Source of the DNA: Candidatus Zixiibacteriota bacterium
GTDB taxonomy: Bacteria > Zixibacteria > MSB-5A5 > WJJR01
Direction: 5' to 3'
DNA length: 64,000 nt
Assembly (NCBI GenBank): GCA_036397555.1
Contig: DASWIS010000001.1
Coordinates: 1-64,000, forward strand
The position numbers and the translations under genes are program-made. Positions 49,355-60,300 of this stretch are shown here, one piece after another. The notes under the pieces were generated by a model. That model was not told where the DNA came from. It worked only from the letters and a program-made list of their open reading frames with translations, and did no database searches. Every line of letters starts with the position of its first letter. Position 1 is the first letter of the stretch.

Positions 49355-50263
49355 TCACCCGATGATCAACGCGGAACGGGTCGCGACAGGCCGGGCCACG
49401 ATCATTCTATCACCCGGTGACAGCCCCATCCCGATTGTTTCGGGATCGGGCGCAAAGTCGAAGATTCCAACGACCGTCGGCCCGCTGCCCGACACCAGCA
49501 CACAACGCGCCCCCGCATGCGAAAGCTGGGAGCGCCAGCGCTGTACCACTGGGGCCCGGCCGATCACCACCTGCTCCAAGTCGTTGTGGAGACCACCGAT
49601 GGCGGCGATGAAGCCGTTGCCTGCCAGCCTGGGGAGAGTATCGGTAAAGGGCCGATCACCTGTCAAGCGCAAAGCCCCGTAGACCTCGGCGGCCGACAGC
49701 CGCATCGAAGGGCAAACCAGCAGCGCCCACCAGTCGGTCGAGCACTCAACAGGTTCCAAGATTTCACCGCGCCCCCGTCCGCGGGCACACGGCGGTCCCA
49801 GAAAGAAGGGGACATCCGACCCCAATTGCGCTGCCCAGTTTGATAGCGTCCGAGCGGTTTCATTAAGTCCCAGCAGCCGGTTGCATGCCGCCAGCGTCGC
49901 GGCCGCGTCGGCCGACCCGCCCCCCAGCCCGGCGGCGATCGGGATGCGCTTGATCAAGCCGATGCGCAGGTGCGCGGTCAGGCCGCGCTCACGTTCGACA
50001 AGGCGCACCGCGCGGACGATCAGATTCGAATCGTCGCCGGTCAGATCGTGCGTGGGGAAGTCGGGGTCATCAGTCCGCCAACTCAGGGCAATCCCGCCCG
50101 AATCGGTCCCTTCAAATTCGAGATCGTCGTAACAATCAATCGCCACGAAGACCGTGTCGATCTCGTGGTAACCGTCGCTGCGTTTGCCAAGCACGCGCAG
50201 TCCCAGGTTGATTTTGGCGGGTGCACGGACATGGCAAGTTCGGGCGGGTTGATCAGATGCCAA
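49355..50263 (-). CDS. ispE: 4-diphosphocytidyl-2-C-methyl-D-erythritol kinase IspE
   Basis: The GHMP kinase of the non-mevalonate isoprenoid pathway. The core starts at RAPAKINLGLRVLGKRSDGYHEIDTVF and contains the ATP loop IPIAAGLGGGSADAAATL and SDVPFFL. The C-terminal SGSGPTVVGIF is also present. The open frame reaches 50356, but its first residues overlap the Wzi-like gene in another phase; TTG 50263 or GTG 50230 are the likely starts. The product has about 290-302 residues, as is usual. Confidence 0.93.
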   Translation of the reverse strand: MASDQPARTCHVRAPAKINLGLRVLGKRSDGYHEIDTVFVAIDCYDDLEFEGTDSGGIALSWRTDDPDFPTHDLTGDDSNLIVRAVRLVERERGLTAHLRIGLIKRIPIAAGLGGGSADAAATLAACNRLLGLNETARTLSNWAAQLGSDVPFFLGPPCARGRGRGEILEPVECSTDWWALLVCPSMRLSAAEVYGALRLTGDRPFTDTLPRLAGNGFIAAIGGLHNDLEQVVIGRAPVVQRWRSQLSHAGARCVLVSGSGPTVVGIFDFAPDPETIGMGLSPGDRMIVARPVATRSALIIG

Positions 50264-51809
50264 GGGTCGCCCACCAGAGCGAGGCCAGCTTAAAGTGGAC
50301 AAAGGGCCCACTGCGGCCTCTGCCCGCCATATTGCCGACATTGTCCACGGTTTCATACCCTGCCAGCAAATCGACGATGATATGCGCGCCCTGCTGTGCG
50401 TGAACTCCCAATCCGCAACTGAGCGTGCGTTCGACGGTGCCCGACGGAAAGGGCACGTCTAAGGGGACGCCGGATTGCTGGGGCGTCGTCAGGCGGTCGG
50501 CTCCACGGCGCACGTATTCGAACATCCCGACGAAGTCAAAGAGGCCGGACTGGTGCCACCGCGGTCGGATGCTGATCCGGTCGGCATCGGTTCCGAGATT
50601 CGAACCGATGCCGATGGCATTGCCGTCGAAGTCATAGTAGTGCAGATAGCGGTTCCACGGACGATTCTGCCCGTAGACAAACGTATTGATCCGCTGATAC
50701 TCGGCGTTGATCAGCAGGCGGTTGTCGCACGGACGCGGCCACCAGGCCACGCCGGTCAACACGCCGAATTGATGCGGTTCCGTGACAAAGTCGATCTGAA
50801 AGTCGTCGATCATCCACTCGCCGTACAGTTCCAGGCCGGACATCGCCCGCCATGAGACCTCGATATTCCATAGTGGATTGTCGTCCTGACCCTGGTTGAG
50901 CTGCTCCCAATAGTACGGGAGCAGGGGATTGAGATAGTACCAATCCCAGTGACGGCCCGGCCCGCCGAATACGATCACTTCCGAGAGGGCGAGTTCCAGT
51001 CGCGTGTGCGGGCGCCAATTGACGCGATGTGCGGACAGGTATCGATTGACCGGACCCTCCTCATTGGTCGTCATGCCATCCAACCGCGTCGTATGGAATG
51101 CATAACTCCAGCGCCCGCCATGATAAACGACCCGCAGTCCATCAAACGGCGGCGAATGATCGGACATGAGCATCGCATCGCGGGGCGAGCGCCCCCAACG
51201 CCAGGATTCGCGTCCAAAAGAGATCGCCAAGCGCCCGAAACGCGCACTGATCACTGCCTGATCGACGATCCATGCCGTAAATTTGTTTCTCCAGTATTGG
51301 CCGCCGAATAGGGTGCCGAAGCGCCCATCCGAATCCACCCGCAGCCGGGTCCGCGCTGCCAGATGCTTCGTATCAGTGAATGCGGCCGTCACATCGAACC
51401 CGACCCGGTTTTTACCATACCCATCCTCGGTGTGGTCGGCGCGCGCTGTAGGACCGGCCCCCAGCCGCACACGTTGGGGAGATTGGATTTCCTCGTGCTC
51501 CGCGGCAGCCAGTTCTTCATGAAATTCATCTTGGAGGCGATTCCAAAGGATCGCCTCTCCCGGCGTCAATACCTCCGCGCCATCCGGTAGTTCGGCAATC
51601 GCCTCGGCAACGTCCCCGCGTGTGTACGGTCTGGTGTGCAGCAGCAACTCCCCAAAGTGTCCCAAGGTCGACAACTCGAAGACCGCATCATAAACCCAGG
51701 AATCCAGCGGTATGTCTTCCAGGCGATTACCCCCGGAATGGGCCACCGCAGGCATCCACACGACGATCGTCCAGACCAGCCAGGACGCACGGATTCTGGG
51801 CCTCTGCAT
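50253..51809 (-). CDS. Wzi-like capsule-assembly outer-membrane protein
   Basis: A beta-barrel protein of about 518 residues from ATG 51809, after which a signal peptide (ASWLVWTIVVWMPAVAHSGG) follows; the frame to 51884 adds 25 unlikely residues. The N-terminal helical part (DIPLDSWVYDAVFELSTLGHFGELL, TRPYTRGDVAEAIAEL) is typical of the Wzi/PF14052 family, which anchors capsular polysaccharide. The rest alternates amphipathic strands and contains WGRSPRDAMLMSD and PLLPYYWEQLNQGQDDN, also characteristic. No capsule genes are nearby. Confidence 0.83.
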   Translation of the reverse strand: MQRPRIRASWLVWTIVVWMPAVAHSGGNRLEDIPLDSWVYDAVFELSTLGHFGELLLHTRPYTRGDVAEAIAELPDGAEVLTPGEAILWNRLQDEFHEELAAAEHEEIQSPQRVRLGAGPTARADHTEDGYGKNRVGFDVTAAFTDTKHLAARTRLRVDSDGRFGTLFGGQYWRNKFTAWIVDQAVISARFGRLAISFGRESWRWGRSPRDAMLMSDHSPPFDGLRVVYHGGRWSYAFHTTRLDGMTTNEEGPVNRYLSAHRVNWRPHTRLELALSEVIVFGGPGRHWDWYYLNPLLPYYWEQLNQGQDDNPLWNIEVSWRAMSGLELYGEWMIDDFQIDFVTEPHQFGVLTGVAWWPRPCDNRLLINAEYQRINTFVYGQNRPWNRYLHYYDFDGNAIGIGSNLGTDADRISIRPRWHQSGLFDFVGMFEYVRRGADRLTTPQQSGVPLDVPFPSGTVERTLSCGLGVHAQQGAHIIVDLLAGYETVDNVGNMAGRGRSGPFVHFKLASLWWATLGI

Positions 51810-51974
51810 GACGCGCAGAGTAGATGTCCCAAACTGCAGGGTCAACGTCAATCCGATTGTGCCTTCGGGTCGGCGGCCGGTCATCTAATCGATTGTCAGA
51901 GAACGTCTTGACTGCGGCAGTGTCTCTGCAGAGCCGGGCCGGGATGCCGATACATATAGATGCAGGGCGAACTC

Positions 51975-53813
51975 ATGGTCGAACACAACTACATCGACTT
52001 CGGGGACAAGGGGGCGGCCGCCGGCAGCGGCGGCGGGCTGCACAACATCGCCGGCGATGTCCTGGCATCGTTGCGCGAATTCTGCACGACGTGGACACGC
52101 GCCGTGCGCACGATTTGTCTGTACCCGCCGACGAATCCGCTTCCCGACGAATTCCGCGAGAAGTTTCACGACGCGCTCACGCGCCATCTCGACGAACAGG
52201 GATCATTCACGCTTACGACCTTTGACGGCGGTTTTGCCTACGAGGGTGAGACGGTGTTGGAGGAGAATGCCGGTGAGGAGAGTCTCTCCTTTCTTTTCTT
52301 CCGTGACGGCGTACGGGAGATCACCTTTGCCACCGGCGTGTCGCGCGAGGAGACCGACCGTTTCCTCGACGTGCTGGCCAGCGCGTTTGCGGCGGGTTCG
52401 GTGTCCGTCGACATGGCGAACGAACTGTGGGAGGCCGGTCTGCCGCACATCAAGCACCGCACGGTCGACCGCATCGTCGAAGGGGCATACATCGAAGCGG
52501 CCGATTCACCGACGCTGGAAAACATCCATCGTCGCTTTGTCGATGCCAGCGGCACCGGCGGCGGTGAAACGGCCGATGGCGAGCCCGGCGGCGGGGGGGA
52601 TGGCGAAGAGGAAGTCGACGAAGGACCATACCAGGGAGTCCAAAGGCAGCGCTTCCAGCACATCGTGCAGGTGTTCGGCGATGTCACCGCGTTAACCGCC
52701 GAAGAAAAGTCGCGCGTCGCGATCCTGGCACGGGAGCTCAGGGAGTCTGCTCCGGAAAAGCTGGGTCTGGACGTTCTCCTGGAAATTCTGCGGGCGGCCG
52801 AGGACACGCGCGTGGCCGAGGAGACGGTCGCCGTGCTGGAAAGACAGGTCGAACGCTGCGTCGAGAACGCGCGCTGGGATTTGGTGCACGAGATCATCGA
52901 TGCGCTGCGTACGCTGGAACCGGAGACCGACTCGCATCTGCAGCGACGCATTCGCGAGGCGATCTCCCGGATCTGCCGTCGCGATCACTTCGAGCGGCTG
53001 GCCTCGTTTCTCAATGCCAATCCGCAGACCGATCTGGAGGCGATACGCGCGTTGCTGCCGTTGTACGGGTCGCCGGCGATCATGCCGATCACGGCGATGC
53101 TGGGCACGCTCGAAGGACGTCCCGCGCGCATGATGGTGTGCGAGTTCCTGAGTAAACAGGGTCGTGATACGATCGATCTGGTCGGCGGATTCATCTACGA
53201 CAAGCGCTGGTTCGTCGTGCGCAACGTGGCGATGATCCTCGGTGAGATCGGACATGAGCGCGCGTTGACGTTCCTGCGGCGATCGGCCTCCCATGCGGAC
53301 GCGCGCGTGCGGCTCGAGACCCTGCGCGCGGCAGCAAAGATCGGCGGCAGCAATGCCAATGTGCTGGTCCGTGAGTTTCTCAAAGACGGCGAAGTCGATC
53401 TGCGCAAGCGCGCGCTGCGTGTTCTGGGGCAAACAGGGGATCCGGCCGTGCGCGATGAGATCCGAGCGCTGGTGGCCGATGATGACTCGATGCCCGACAA
53501 GGACCCGCAGGAGTTGCGCGAGATGTTCGTCGCGCATGTGCGTCTCGGCGGGGAACGCGCCGTCTCCGATCTGGTCGATGTGATCGGGAAGAACCGGCTC
53601 TTCGGACGCTCCCGCTGGCAGGCGGTGCGCGTCGCGGCCACACACTCGCTGGCCGATGCGACCGTCTCGCGGGCACGCGAAAAGCTCGAGGAGCTTAGCC
53701 ACGACCGCAACGAAGCGGTCGCCGCCGCCGCGCGGGCGGCGCTGCAACATTTACGCGCGCCGCAGGCGCATCCCGGCACGCACGACGATGTGTTGGAGGA
53801 TTTCGAGGAATGA
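51975..53813 (+). CDS. HEAT-repeat protein with N-terminal domain shared with the adjacent HD-GYP protein
   Basis: 612 residues from ATG 51975 (AGGG upstream; an ATG at 51960 adds five). Residues 35-140 contain FCTTWTRAVRTICLYPPTNP, GSFTLTTFDGGFAYEGETV and GVSREETDRFLDVLA, which align with residues 25-122 of the next gene. A Gly/Glu-rich linker lies near 185-215. From about 225 on, the protein is helical with degenerate HEAT repeats, clearest at 370-600 (DKRWFVVRNVAMILGEIGHE, DARVRLETLRAAAKIGG, LRKRALRVLGQTGD). It has no signal peptide, so it is cytoplasmic. A scaffold or regulator that works with the HD-GYP enzyme is likely. The two genes overlap by 4 bases. Confidence 0.85.
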   Translation: MVEHNYIDFGDKGAAAGSGGGLHNIAGDVLASLREFCTTWTRAVRTICLYPPTNPLPDEFREKFHDALTRHLDEQGSFTLTTFDGGFAYEGETVLEENAGEESLSFLFFRDGVREITFATGVSREETDRFLDVLASAFAAGSVSVDMANELWEAGLPHIKHRTVDRIVEGAYIEAADSPTLENIHRRFVDASGTGGGETADGEPGGGGDGEEEVDEGPYQGVQRQRFQHIVQVFGDVTALTAEEKSRVAILARELRESAPEKLGLDVLLEILRAAEDTRVAEETVAVLERQVERCVENARWDLVHEIIDALRTLEPETDSHLQRRIREAISRICRRDHFERLASFLNANPQTDLEAIRALLPLYGSPAIMPITAMLGTLEGRPARMMVCEFLSKQGRDTIDLVGGFIYDKRWFVVRNVAMILGEIGHERALTFLRRSASHADARVRLETLRAAAKIGGSNANVLVREFLKDGEVDLRKRALRVLGQTGDPAVRDEIRALVADDDSMPDKDPQELREMFVAHVRLGGERAVSDLVDVIGKNRLFGRSRWQAVRVAATHSLADATVSRAREKLEELSHDRNEAVAAAARAALQHLRAPQAHPGTHDDVLEDFEE

Positions 53814-55318
53814 ATGAACGGACCGCCGCACGGGGGATGAGCGCCGAAGAACGGGCCGTCCGTCTCTCCGCACTCAAGGCATTCTTCGCCACCTGGCGCG
53901 CGGCCGCCGTCTATGATGAAAACAACCATGCCTACCAGTCGCGACGGGGTGAATTGATCCAGGCGCTGGAGGCGACCTTCAACCTGGGCGGCTCGTTCGC
54001 CATTCAGTATCAGGACGACTACATATTCGTCAACGGCGAACGCATCAACTACGACCGCGACTTCGGATTCGGACGCTCACTCGCGACGCGCTTCGCCGAG
54101 CTGGGGTTGGGCGGCATTACCATCAACCCTGACGCCTCGACGGACCAGGTCGACCGCGCGCTCTTTGCGTTGGCGCAGGCCGACCGCCGCGTCGCCGTAC
54201 CGTATGACGCGCTCACGGCAATGTGGGAGACGTTGGGAATCAGCGGCATCACGCTGGCTCCGCTGGCGGCCCACACCGCGTCGCGTCAGACCGATGCGGG
54301 GGAACAATCCGCAACCAACGCGCGCGTCAAACGGAAACGCCGCGCGCGGGCGCTCTTTGTGCGTTCCGAACGGATCGTCCGTGACTGCTGGGAACGCGTC
54401 CGCGACAACCGCTCGTTCGAGGGATCGTCGGTCGAGCGCGTTGTCCACCAACTGATCGACGAGGTGGCGCACGACGAGGACATGCTCCTGGAGTTTTCGA
54501 CGCTGAAGGACTTCGATGAGTACACGTTCTTCCATTCGGTGAATGTGGCGATCTACTCGATCGCTGTCGGGATGCGCCTGGGGCTCGACCGGACGGCGCT
54601 GGCCGATCTGGGAATCGCCGCGCTCCTGCACGACATCGGCAAAGTCAAACTGCCGCGCGATCTGATCAGTAAGCCGTCGGAGTTCGATGACGACGACTGG
54701 CTGCAAATGCAGCGGCATCCGATCTTCGGGGCGATGACCATTGCCGCGATGCGTGTCCTCGATGGACAGAGCGGCGCGGCGATCGCCGTCGCATTTGAGC
54801 ACCACCTGAAGATGGATCTCAGCGGCTACCCGAAATTGACACACCCGCGACCGCTGCATCTGTTCTCGCGCATCGTGACCGTCTGCGACAGCTTCGATGC
54901 CATGACATCGGGACGCGTTTACCAACGAGACCGCATTCAGCCCGATGAGGCCATGCGACGCCTGTTGTACCGAGCCAAAGAGTGGTACGATCCGCTCGTC
55001 ATGAAGGCCTTCGTCAGCGTCGTCGGCGTGTTCCCGGTCGGGAGTCTGGTGCGGCTCTCCGATAACTCGGTGGCTGTCGTCGTTCGCAACGACGGGGTCG
55101 ATCTGTATTGCCCCGAAGTGATGGTGGTCCGGGATGCCGAACGGCAGCCGTGCAGACGCGAGCTCAAGCTGCACATCGATGCGGCCGATTCGTCATCCGA
55201 CCGGCTGCACATCATGACCGTGCTGGATCCACACGATGAGGGCATCGACGTGCACGAGTACATTGCCGGCGACGAGACGCCGCTGTTGCCCGAAGACGTC
55301 ACCACGACCGTCCCGTGA
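53810..55318 (+). CDS. HD-GYP domain phosphodiesterase-like protein
   Basis: A protein of 502 residues. Residues 20-125 form the domain shared with the HEAT protein (FFATWRAAAVYDENNHAYQ, GSFAIQYQDDYIFVNGERI, DQVDRALFALA). The HD-GYP domain spans about 215-400: HSVNVAIYSIAVGMRLGLD, ALLHDIGKVKLP (HD), QRHPIFGA and FEHHLKMDLSGYP (HH and GYP; the usual DG between is DLS). A C-terminal beta-domain follows (VGSLVRLSDNSVAVVVRNDG). The metal ligands H, HD, H, HH and D appear present, so c-di-GMP or cGAMP hydrolysis is possible. No receiver domain precedes it; the shared N-terminal domain is the probable sensor. Confidence 0.9.
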   Translation: MNERTAARGMSAEERAVRLSALKAFFATWRAAAVYDENNHAYQSRRGELIQALEATFNLGGSFAIQYQDDYIFVNGERINYDRDFGFGRSLATRFAELGLGGITINPDASTDQVDRALFALAQADRRVAVPYDALTAMWETLGISGITLAPLAAHTASRQTDAGEQSATNARVKRKRRARALFVRSERIVRDCWERVRDNRSFEGSSVERVVHQLIDEVAHDEDMLLEFSTLKDFDEYTFFHSVNVAIYSIAVGMRLGLDRTALADLGIAALLHDIGKVKLPRDLISKPSEFDDDDWLQMQRHPIFGAMTIAAMRVLDGQSGAAIAVAFEHHLKMDLSGYPKLTHPRPLHLFSRIVTVCDSFDAMTSGRVYQRDRIQPDEAMRRLLYRAKEWYDPLVMKAFVSVVGVFPVGSLVRLSDNSVAVVVRNDGVDLYCPEVMVVRDAERQPCRRELKLHIDAADSSSDRLHIMTVLDPHDEGIDVHEYIAGDETPLLPEDVTTTVP

Positions 55319-57297: not shown

Positions 57298-60200
57298 CTA
57301 CTGGTTGATCGCCGGTCCGCCGTCGCAGTCGGGCGGCTGAAGCCCCGCGCGGAAGACGTAGTCGATCAGACGCACGACGTCGAAAACGTTGGTGAAGGTG
57401 TCGCAGTTGATGTCGGCGTGTTCCACGGGTTCAGGCGGCGCTTCCGCGCGGAAGATATATCCGATCAAACACACGATGTCGAACACATCGACACTGCAGT
57501 TGGGCGTCCGGTTGGGTCCCCCGCACAAGTCGCCCTCAAAGTAGTCCTGTTTGACGGTGCAGGAGATCGGACGGGCCGACTGCCCCGCCTTGATGTAATA
57601 AATCGTGAGCGTTCCCGACGATCCGACCGGAGTCAGATCCGACGTGCAGATGCGAATGAGCGAGACCAAGCCGACCCCGAATGTGTCGATCACCGTGTCT
57701 TTAGGCGGTTCGTATGTCCAACCCAGCGCCAGCAGAAGCGGATCGGACCAGCGGGTCACAATTTCGTCGGCGTCGACCAAGTCACGGATATAAAACACAA
57801 AGCAGGTCGCTGCCGGTGGGCACTGCCGCGTGATCACAGCACAAGTCGCGGCGACATTGAAGGAATCGCAGCAATCGGTGTAGAGTCTGGCTTCCAGACA
57901 CATGTCGCGGTAATTGGGAACGATTAGGGTCACGCTGGAGTCTTCGATCACGCCGCCGGGCAGCAGCGTCTGTCCCAACGTGATCACGTCGATGCGTTCC
58001 CAAGTCGGTGTGGCACTGGCAACGCTTTGCCACAGCACCACCGAGTCGACGTTGCAGGCGTCCCCAGCGGGGTTGTTCTGAACCAACCAGCGGACGGTGA
58101 CCGTGTCGTCCGGCTCGAATCCGCCCTCGGGATCGAAGCCGAGCTTTTGTGTCAGGTATTCGCACGGTCCGGATGGGAAGCAGTGATCGCAGCAGTGCGC
58201 GACATGGCGCTGGGAGTCCAGATCGTCAACTTCGCCATCGGCGTTCAAGTCGCGGCAATCGCCCAGCGCGTCATCGTGATCGTCGGGCGTGACGCAATTG
58301 TCGCCGTCAACATCGGTCGAGCGCACCGGCACCGTCGTCGAGAATCCACAACCCGTGGTGATCGTCACGTCACAGTCGGGGCAGTCGCCGCCCGCCGCGA
58401 TGGAGAACATGACCTCGCCGTCGGCATCGCTGGCGACTTCGGCGGGCACGATCGGCCACGAGGGATAGAGCCCGGGCTGCGGCACAAACTCGCTGCCGAC
58501 ACAATCAGAAAAATCCAGTGTGACATCGCTGTAGCCGACCATCGGCATGTTGGATTGGTCTTTGAGATGGACGCTGAAGACTACATCGCCCTTGGGGCAG
58601 GCCAGCAGGTAGGGGTCGGTTGTTGTCGCGGTCGCGCAACCGGGTGGCACGCCGATGGTGATGATCCCCTTGGTGAACTCGGGCAAATGGCACGTGCGCG
58701 TACCGCACTCGATGAACACGAGATGGTTCGCGGGTGTCACGCAGGCGGTATCAATCTCAAATTGGCCGTTCGTCGCTGTAACATCGAAAGTGAGCAGGAC
58801 CGATGGAGTACCCGAGCCCGGTGAACCATCCGTCCCAGACGCCATGCACGTTGCGCTTGCTCCATATGCCAGGTATGAGACCGCATCAGGGCTTGAACCC
58901 AGGTTCGCCGCAGCGGTCGAGACGGCCCACGATTGCGACACGGGACCGCTGCAGTCATTGGACGCGCTCGGGGTGGTAAAGTACCGACCCGCTCCACTGC
59001 CCAGACCCGCCGCTGCCAGCCGTCCCTGCACGGTCAGACTGAAATTGCCGGCAATGAATGCACCGGGCTGAATCGAGCGCAGCTCCAGCGGCACGACAAT
59101 GGCCTCGATACCCACGCTGTTTGTCACGTAGCCGCCGACCGTCACGGCAGCGGCTCCCGTCGCAACTGTCTTCGACTCGATGACCAGACTATTGCCGACC
59201 GAGGGACTACCGGGTTCACATACAGGAGGTATCGTGCCATCGCAGGGCTGACAGGGAGGTGCGCCATTCAAGAAAACTCGCTCGGTCACTAGATCGACAT
59301 CAATGGCATTGACCACGCCATCGCAATTGAAATCCTCGCGTGCAACCGGGCAGTCGGGGTCGAATGTCGGAGTTCCGCCTCCGAAAGCCACATCGATGAC
59401 CAAGGCGAGATCAGAAGTTGTAATTCCACCCGAGCCGTCCGGGTTTCCGGGGAACGGGCAGGAGCAGTCGAGGACGGTGATGACGCCCTTGGTGAATTCG
59501 GGGGGATGGCAGATGTGAGAGTTGTCGACGAAGACGAGGAAATTGTCCGGCGTGACACAGCACGTGTCGATCTCGAATTGTCCGCTGGCGGCAGAAACAT
59601 CGAAAGTCAATTGAAAGGATGGTGTTCCCGCTCCGGGCGTTCCATCGGTCCCCGGTGAGAGGAAGTTCTGTTCTCCAACTCCGGCATAAAAGACCGCGTC
59701 TGGAGACACGCCGAGGTTGGCGGGACTCGTGGACTCAGACCATGTTTGTGACACCGGCCCGCTGCAAGTCTGAGCCGACGGAATATCGAAGAAACGAATA
59801 ACTTGATAATCGGGAGGAAACAGCCCGGCGATACGTCCCTGCGGCTGGAAATTCACATTGTCAGAAACGAACGCCCCACCGGTCACCGTGCGCAGTTCCA
59901 ACGGTAGCACGACAGCTTCGACTGTCACACTATTGGTTAGATATATGCCGACAGTAACCCCAGTTGCGCCGAGGGTCACGGACTTCGATTCGATGACGAC
60001 ACTGTTGCCGGGGGACGGTCCGCCCATGGGGCAATCCTCCGGAACAAATGAGCCGGATCGATCCGGCAGAATCATTCCGGTCACATCCGGATTCTGTGTG
60101 ACCGGTTCAGGAGAGCCGCGATCAAGGTCTGTGGCGGGATTCTCGGCGGTCACGACGCCATTGTTACCCGATCTGATGTCCGTCGTCAGCATCCCGGAAT

Positions 60201-60300
60201 CCGTTGTGCCGGGCTGAGATGTCTCCGATCCATGCAGATGCGACGTGGCGCACGCAATCGCCGTTCCAACGATGATGACGCGACGCATGTTTCTCGCCAT
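57298..60300 (-). CDS. Secreted protein with two cohesin-like domains and dockerin-type repeats
   Basis: 1000 residues from ATG 60300 (GGAGGGAGAAG upstream), with a short signal peptide (RRVIIVGTAIACATSHLHG). Residues about 100-280 and 370-545 are internal duplicates starting VVIESKSV/LVIESKTV and ending in [26 protein letters not shown] plus EFTKGVITV/EFTKGIITI. The same domain occurs once in the 9050-12121 protein. Between the copies is a dockerin-type segment (CDGVVNAIDVDLV). Later come a calcium-type segment (DVDGDNCVTPDDHDDA, DLNADGEVDDLD), an extended beta-rich region with many cysteines, and two dockerin-type repeats at the end (NCSVDVFDIVCLIGYIFR, TNVFDVVRLIDYVFRAG). No enzymatic domain is recognisable. 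Confidence 0.82.
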   Translation of the reverse strand: MARNMRRVIIVGTAIACATSHLHGSETSQPGTTDSGMLTTDIRSGNNGVVTAENPATDLDRGSPEPVTQNPDVTGMILPDRSGSFVPEDCPMGGPSPGNSVVIESKSVTLGATGVTVGIYLTNSVTVEAVVLPLELRTVTGGAFVSDNVNFQPQGRIAGLFPPDYQVIRFFDIPSAQTCSGPVSQTWSESTSPANLGVSPDAVFYAGVGEQNFLSPGTDGTPGAGTPSFQLTFDVSAASGQFEIDTCCVTPDNFLVFVDNSHICHPPEFTKGVITVLDCSCPFPGNPDGSGGITTSDLALVIDVAFGGGTPTFDPDCPVAREDFNCDGVVNAIDVDLVTERVFLNGAPPCQPCDGTIPPVCEPGSPSVGNSLVIESKTVATGAAAVTVGGYVTNSVGIEAIVVPLELRSIQPGAFIAGNFSLTVQGRLAAAGLGSGAGRYFTTPSASNDCSGPVSQSWAVSTAAANLGSSPDAVSYLAYGASATCMASGTDGSPGSGTPSVLLTFDVTATNGQFEIDTACVTPANHLVFIECGTRTCHLPEFTKGIITIGVPPGCATATTTDPYLLACPKGDVVFSVHLKDQSNMPMVGYSDVTLDFSDCVGSEFVPQPGLYPSWPIVPAEVASDADGEVMFSIAAGGDCPDCDVTITTGCGFSTTVPVRSTDVDGDNCVTPDDHDDALGDCRDLNADGEVDDLDSQRHVAHCCDHCFPSGPCEYLTQKLGFDPEGGFEPDDTVTVRWLVQNNPAGDACNVDSVVLWQSVASATPTWERIDVITLGQTLLPGGVIEDSSVTLIVPNYRDMCLEARLYTDCCDSFNVAATCAVITRQCPPAATCFVFYIRDLVDADEIVTRWSDPLLLALGWTYEPPKDTVIDTFGVGLVSLIRICTSDLTPVGSSGTLTIYYIKAGQSARPISCTVKQDYFEGDLCGGPNRTPNCSVDVFDIVCLIGYIFRAEAPPEPVEHADINCDTFTNVFDVVRLIDYVFRAGLQPPDCDGGPAINQ

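Follow-up and report, generated by a model that had tools for sequence, protein, structure and literature searches.

HD-GYP enzymes are often dimers, and the usual description is of a single protein that carries its sensor on the same chain. Closest to the locus described here are the HD-GYP phosphodiesterases PmGH (4mcw/4mdz) and V-cGAP3 (5z7c), the Tyr/Phe subfamily of HD-GYP proteins and, for the adjoining gene, the bacterial PBS-lyase/HEAT_2 repeat proteins. In the open-access literature, as represented by titles and abstracts and with subscription journals outside it, no paper on a HEAT/HD-GYP or HEAT/c-di-GMP pair was found. The 64,000-nucleotide stretch of a Candidatus Zixiibacteriota genome analyzed here (hereafter the window) carries a HEAT-repeat gene and an HD-GYP gene which, with a probability of roughly 55%, encode one two-subunit c-di-GMP phosphodiesterase signaling unit. 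The HD-GYP protein shares with the known phosphodiesterases the HD-GYP domain, the metal ligands except Glu185, and Arg314, but no Pfam match makes its input domain a GAF, REC or PAS domain, and its gene has a HEAT-repeat neighbor encoding the same N-terminal domain (hereafter N-domain). The HEAT protein resembles PBS-lyase/HEAT_2 proteins in its C-terminal array, which matches PF13646 and PF03130, but differs from them in carrying the N-domain and in its coupling to a phosphodiesterase; NblB, its best NCBIfam match, scores 39 bits, far under the cut-off of 300.

The first-pass annotation placed both genes correctly and regarded them as coupled, which agrees with their adjacency in relatives and with a 4-nt overlap of the HEAT stop and the HD-GYP start, as ATGA (see the table). 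A second ATG lies upstream of the HEAT gene at 51960, and the Met at 51975 is kept in 88% of relatives. The HEAT array matches PF13646 (HEAT_2) in five stretches (E=3e-20, 72.7 bits vs a cut-off of 27.7), and tandem repeats above the curated cut-off are likewise found in 41/41 members. In the C-terminal extension of the HD-GYP protein the conserved columns are P409, G411, L416, P435 and V437. Two divergent neighbors were also seen in the window, namely a Wzi-like capsule-assembly protein upstream of the pair (50256-51884) and, downstream of LepA, a 1000-aa dockerin-type secreted protein, judged by eye (57298-60300).

Table. Positions of the paired genes and their domains in the window.
Feature	Position	Strand	Description and basis
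HEAT-repeat protein gene	51975..53813	+	Open reading frame; 612 aa, N-domain + linker + HEAT array
N-domain, HEAT copy	52032..52514	+	Residues ~20-180, core ~25-165; profile-profile homology, AlphaFold2 model
HEAT-repeat array	52692..53774	+	Residues ~240-600; PF13646/PF03130 matches; conserved in all members
HD-GYP protein gene	53810..55318	+	Open reading frame; 502 aa; HD_5 E=6e-20
N-domain, HD-GYP copy	53843..54265	+	Residues ~12-152; profile-profile homology, HEAT-N profile match, AlphaFold2 model
HD-GYP catalytic domain	54515..55030	+	Ligands unchanged in all or almost all of 114 members; mapped to PmGH
HD-GYP protein C-terminal extension, conserved	55031..55315	+	YP-x-G-x-L ... P-x-V

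The shared N-domain, about 140 residues long, had been proposed from the window alone, and BLASTP, HHalign and a profile search of the genome all bear this out. When the whole proteins are compared by BLASTP, only their N-termini align (28% over 126 aa, E=1e-5). HHalign of 41 HEAT-type (HEAT-N) against 39 HD-GYP-type (HD-N) sequences gives a probability of 98.5% (E=1.9e-14, 138 columns), and with about 105 HEAT-N and 113 HD-N sequences from several phyla this rises to 99.2% (E=7.1e-20, 132 columns); the two N-termini thus match significantly in a profile comparison of the kind that the first-pass annotation had proposed as a check. In control alignments of the N-domains of the smaller set with the C-terminal part of the partner the probabilities were 0.03% and 1.3%. 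Searched against the whole 2.6-Mb genome, the HEAT-N profile hits two places only, the HEAT protein (1e-50) and the HD-GYP protein (1.2e-12). A chance resemblance is excluded by the profile comparison with its negative controls, and on these alignments the N-termini are homologous beyond chance, with an identity of about 20% in the profile comparison. The motifs by which the resemblance was initially described are in register with the exception of TW-x-x-AV, which is off by 4 residues; in the profile alignment, VRTICLYPPTN of the HEAT protein lines up with WRAAAVYDENN of the HD-GYP protein. The GSF motif is local to the window pair, as against the best-conserved anchors of the family, which are K-x2-K-x4-Y-P-x2-N-P where the first helix ends, a Gly in the middle of the domain, a helix with E-x3-F and, on the HEAT side, a Trp.

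AlphaFold2 models of the two N-domains, built from alignments of 79 and 94 members, were compared by their order of helices and strands. The HEAT-N model (pLDDT 89, pTM 0.83) reads HHEEEHEHHE and the HD-N model (pLDDT 96, pTM 0.90) HHEEHEHHE, each consisting of two long helices, a two- or three-stranded meander, a helix, a strand, two helices and a strand. Both copies hence combine a significant profile match with the same element order, and the N-domain is an alpha/beta domain as modeled. It was said to belong to no named family, and this holds in Pfam and NCBIfam, which have no model covering it, whether in the window proteins or in the N-domains of 75 relatives; TIGR02675 (tape measure), KwaB and a daptide MTase each gave an isolated low-scoring match to one member. 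As to known folds, neither model had a Foldseek match in the PDB with E under 0.4, and a viral structure search gave nothing significant. A PDB cytochrome fusion (9l08) was considered as a relative, but its profile match (2e-5) contained no single passing stretch and looked spurious.

GAF domains, which, like the N-domain, head signaling proteins, are frequent among the weak PDB matches of both models. The TM-scores of these matches are about 0.2-0.3, with a TM (query) of at most 0.31 among the matches listed, and neither Pfam GAF nor PAS occurs in any of the 75 N-domains. With such scores, no match below E=0.4 and no Pfam GAF, the N-domain is not assigned to GAF. The enrichment, although it comes from non-significant matches, is what would be expected of the main rival to the two-subunit reading, in which the N-domain is a ligand-binding or homodimerizing input domain, each protein uses its own copy separately, and the two genes are co-transcribed through the same cue while their products make no contact. 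The frequent dimerization of HD-GYP proteins fits this as well. We consider this rival somewhat unlikely, on grounds that come from the distribution of the N-domain described below.

The HD-GYP protein itself has an intact active site. Its best sequence matches among solved phosphodiesterases are PmGH (4mcw, E=2e-21) and 5z7c, and its catalytic domain contains D236, Y238, H242, H274-D275, K278, H303, H331-H332, G339-Y340-P341, D360 and R369. Across 114 relatives H242, D275, H303, H331, H332 and D360 are invariant, H274 is present in 113, and G339-Y340-P341 in 114/114. In PmGH numbering the equivalents kept throughout the 114 relatives are H189, H221 (in 113 of them), D222, H250, H276, H277, D305, D183, K225, G284-Y285-P286 and R314. 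PmGH differs at Glu185, whose position is Tyr238 in 114/114, in place of the carboxylate ligand of the E/D-T-G (trimetal) subfamily. The protein therefore falls in the Tyr/Phe subfamily, which has a Y-T-Y cluster and makes up roughly half of HD-GYP proteins (PMC4159591), and is still an HD-GYP protein; it probably has a bimetal site. From the conserved residues, it is predicted to be a phosphodiesterase, likely active on c-di-GMP or a close relative.

A substrate other than c-di-GMP, e.g., cGAMP or a modified nucleotide, would be compatible with the two-subunit reading, and V-cGAP3, one of the top two matches by sequence in the PDB, is a 3'3'-cGAMP phosphodiesterase. The universal replacement of the Glu185 metal ligand by Tyr could be taken in the same direction, but such a residue is the norm in the large Tyr/Phe subfamily. 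Moreover, Arg314, which contacts guanine in PmGH, is invariant in the 114 members, and GGDEF genes are present in 29/29 genomes tested, the window genome having two GGDEF proteins with intact GG[DE]EF. Another substrate therefore appears improbable.

How constant is the pairing? Among 58 genomes, comprising that of the window and relatives no more distant than its class (those matched to named records being Candidatus Zixiibacteriota), 46 have a full-length HD-GYP gene, and all 46 also have a HEAT match, which in G026 and G037 lies on a different contig from the HD-GYP gene, at contig ends. Both genes are missing in nine genomes, and a HEAT gene occurs alone in three, each time no more than about 400 bases from where the contig ends; where missing, the two are mostly absent together. 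In 41/41 related loci examined the two reading frames are direct neighbors with a common orientation, most commonly with the 4-nt overlap. Distances between HEAT proteins correlate with those between HD-GYP proteins at 0.71-0.83, as expected for any co-inherited genes. The neighbors are LepA, IspE-like and Wzi-like genes in the window genome and other housekeeping genes in other Zixibacteria.

More widely, GTDB species genomes searched with the HD family yielded 80 loci, the nearest of at least 585 matches and as such not an unbiased census, with a HEAT partner adjacent in nearly all. Their records, MAGs included, label them as Zixibacteria, Gemmatimonadota, Nitrospirota, Deltaproteobacteria/Desulfobacterota, Elusimicrobia, Eisenbacteria, Calditrichota, Aerophobetes and two actinobacterial MAGs. 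Wherever the upstream sequence reaches far enough, the HEAT partner is there, intact or, in L113 and L160, fragmented; the contig ends before the HEAT position in L118, L127, L161, L162 and L179. Pairing specific to one species is thereby dismissed, and the pairing that the first-pass annotation suggested looking for in other FCB genomes extends far beyond that group. Most of the relatives sampled among Nitrospirota, Gemmatimonadota and Zixibacteria have the pair, which is kept together in at least four sampled phyla while its neighbors change. No other constant neighbor was seen among the 80 loci, and a larger conserved operon was rejected, since the neighbors differ by lineage.

Individual loci show some variation. 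In Candidatus Manganitrophus (L160:4279-6004) the HEAT partner is split into three reading frames beside an intact HD-GYP gene, reflecting either a pseudogene or a sequencing frameshift. In Gemmatimonadota the pair lies inside the tryptophan operon, as trpC-trpB-HEAT-HD-trpA (L134:2226-8158, L150, L154, L155, L157), and in L134 Pfam bears this arrangement out. A T2SSE ATPase with a receiver domain stands beside the pair in L113.

The N-domain could also be the fossil of an old tandem duplication, the pair being kept by operon structure while the proteins now serve different pathways. The low identity of the two N-domains and the greater variability of the HD copy compared with the rest of the HD-GYP protein would suit such a history. 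It is nevertheless highly improbable, as the pair is conserved while its surroundings are not, the two genes are missing jointly, and HEAT plus HD-GYP is also the composition of a second set of pairs. This second set emerges from a census with a combined N-domain profile, in genome sets whose phylum was drawn from a named member, which matched 42/61 Gemmatimonadota, 41/51 Nitrospirota and 22/49 Desulfobacterota genomes. Copies per genome are mostly two or four, and even in number in 35/41 positive Nitrospirota. Genomes with at least four often carry a further, divergent pair, whose proteins are about 710 and 400 aa long; where scanned, the shorter is HD-GYP and the longer mostly HEAT (one has no Pfam match).

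In 38 named genomes, 106 of 132 N-domain copies have a neighboring copy no more than 2.6 kb away on their own strand, 10 of the 106 within one long protein. Independent sensors would not need 80% of copies to adjoin another, nor HEAT and HD copies that form separate lineages kept side by side. This separation is seen in a FastTree of 120 N-domains that includes both pair types, where 54/54 HEAT-type copies fall on one side and 50/51 HD-type copies on the other, with a weak local support of 0.56 for the split. As the two types separate on the tree, the duplication is probably old, and the simplest reading is one old N-domain duplication followed by inheritance as a pair.

Other N-domain proteins have further architectures. 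Deltaproteobacterial proteins of about 1430 aa have the order GGDEF (AGDEF motif)-AAA_16-N-N-HEAT (L227:2049-11175, L228:3186-12064, L235:1585-5796), with two tandem copies in L227 and in L228. A 1115-aa protein (L236:1609-4956) joins the N-domain to HEAT repeats, a cyclic-nucleotide-binding (cNMP) domain and PilZ. PAS-histidine kinases of Elusimicrobia and another MAG also begin with the N-domain (L113:10253-12118, L232:1861-3735, L240:2325-4232). A full HEAT/HD-GYP fusion was not seen among the architectures examined.

The N-domain thus also occurs on partnerless proteins, histidine kinases and solo HEAT proteins, and is therefore not solely a HEAT:HD-GYP adaptor. These proteins carry it where a sensory domain would stand, in keeping with separate use of each copy, but the two copies within one chain of the GGDEF-AAA proteins run against that use and are circumstantial support for contact between N-domains. 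From the pairing, the parallel lineages and the chains holding two copies, we infer that the two N-domains of the pair, which the first-pass annotation took as possible heterodimer partners, touch one another or have a common binding target.

In the two-subunit reading, the HEAT protein would be a protein-binding scaffold that regulates or localizes the HD-GYP enzyme, probably via the shared domain, so that a partner bound by the HEAT array could control cyclic-dinucleotide turnover. The link to c-di-GMP is strengthened by the intact HD-GYP site together with fusions of the N-domain to GGDEF, PilZ and histidine-kinase domains. The case for the module is made up of homology, helix and strand order, synteny, co-absence, mostly even copy numbers, the second set of HEAT and HD-GYP pairs, the separation of HEAT-type and HD-type copies on the tree and the catalytic residues of the HD-GYP protein. 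The new signaling module proposed in the first-pass annotation is well supported by genomics, through the shared domain, the coupled genes and the pairing across phyla. A broader proposal is more tentative, with slightly less than an even chance: HEAT-type and HD-GYP-type copies would have been inherited as neighbors from a time earlier than the divergence of several phyla and would make up a dedicated heteromeric c-di-GMP phosphodiesterase with HEAT as its regulatory subunit, and the N-domain family would also wire HEAT scaffolds to GGDEF and PilZ proteins, as a c-di-GMP adaptor system.

If this is correct, a c-di-GMP adaptor system has been overlooked because it occurs in poorly cultured phyla. 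A conserved partner with a homologous domain would mean two-subunit control of cyclic-dinucleotide turnover, and would give a domain missing from current libraries its first testable function.
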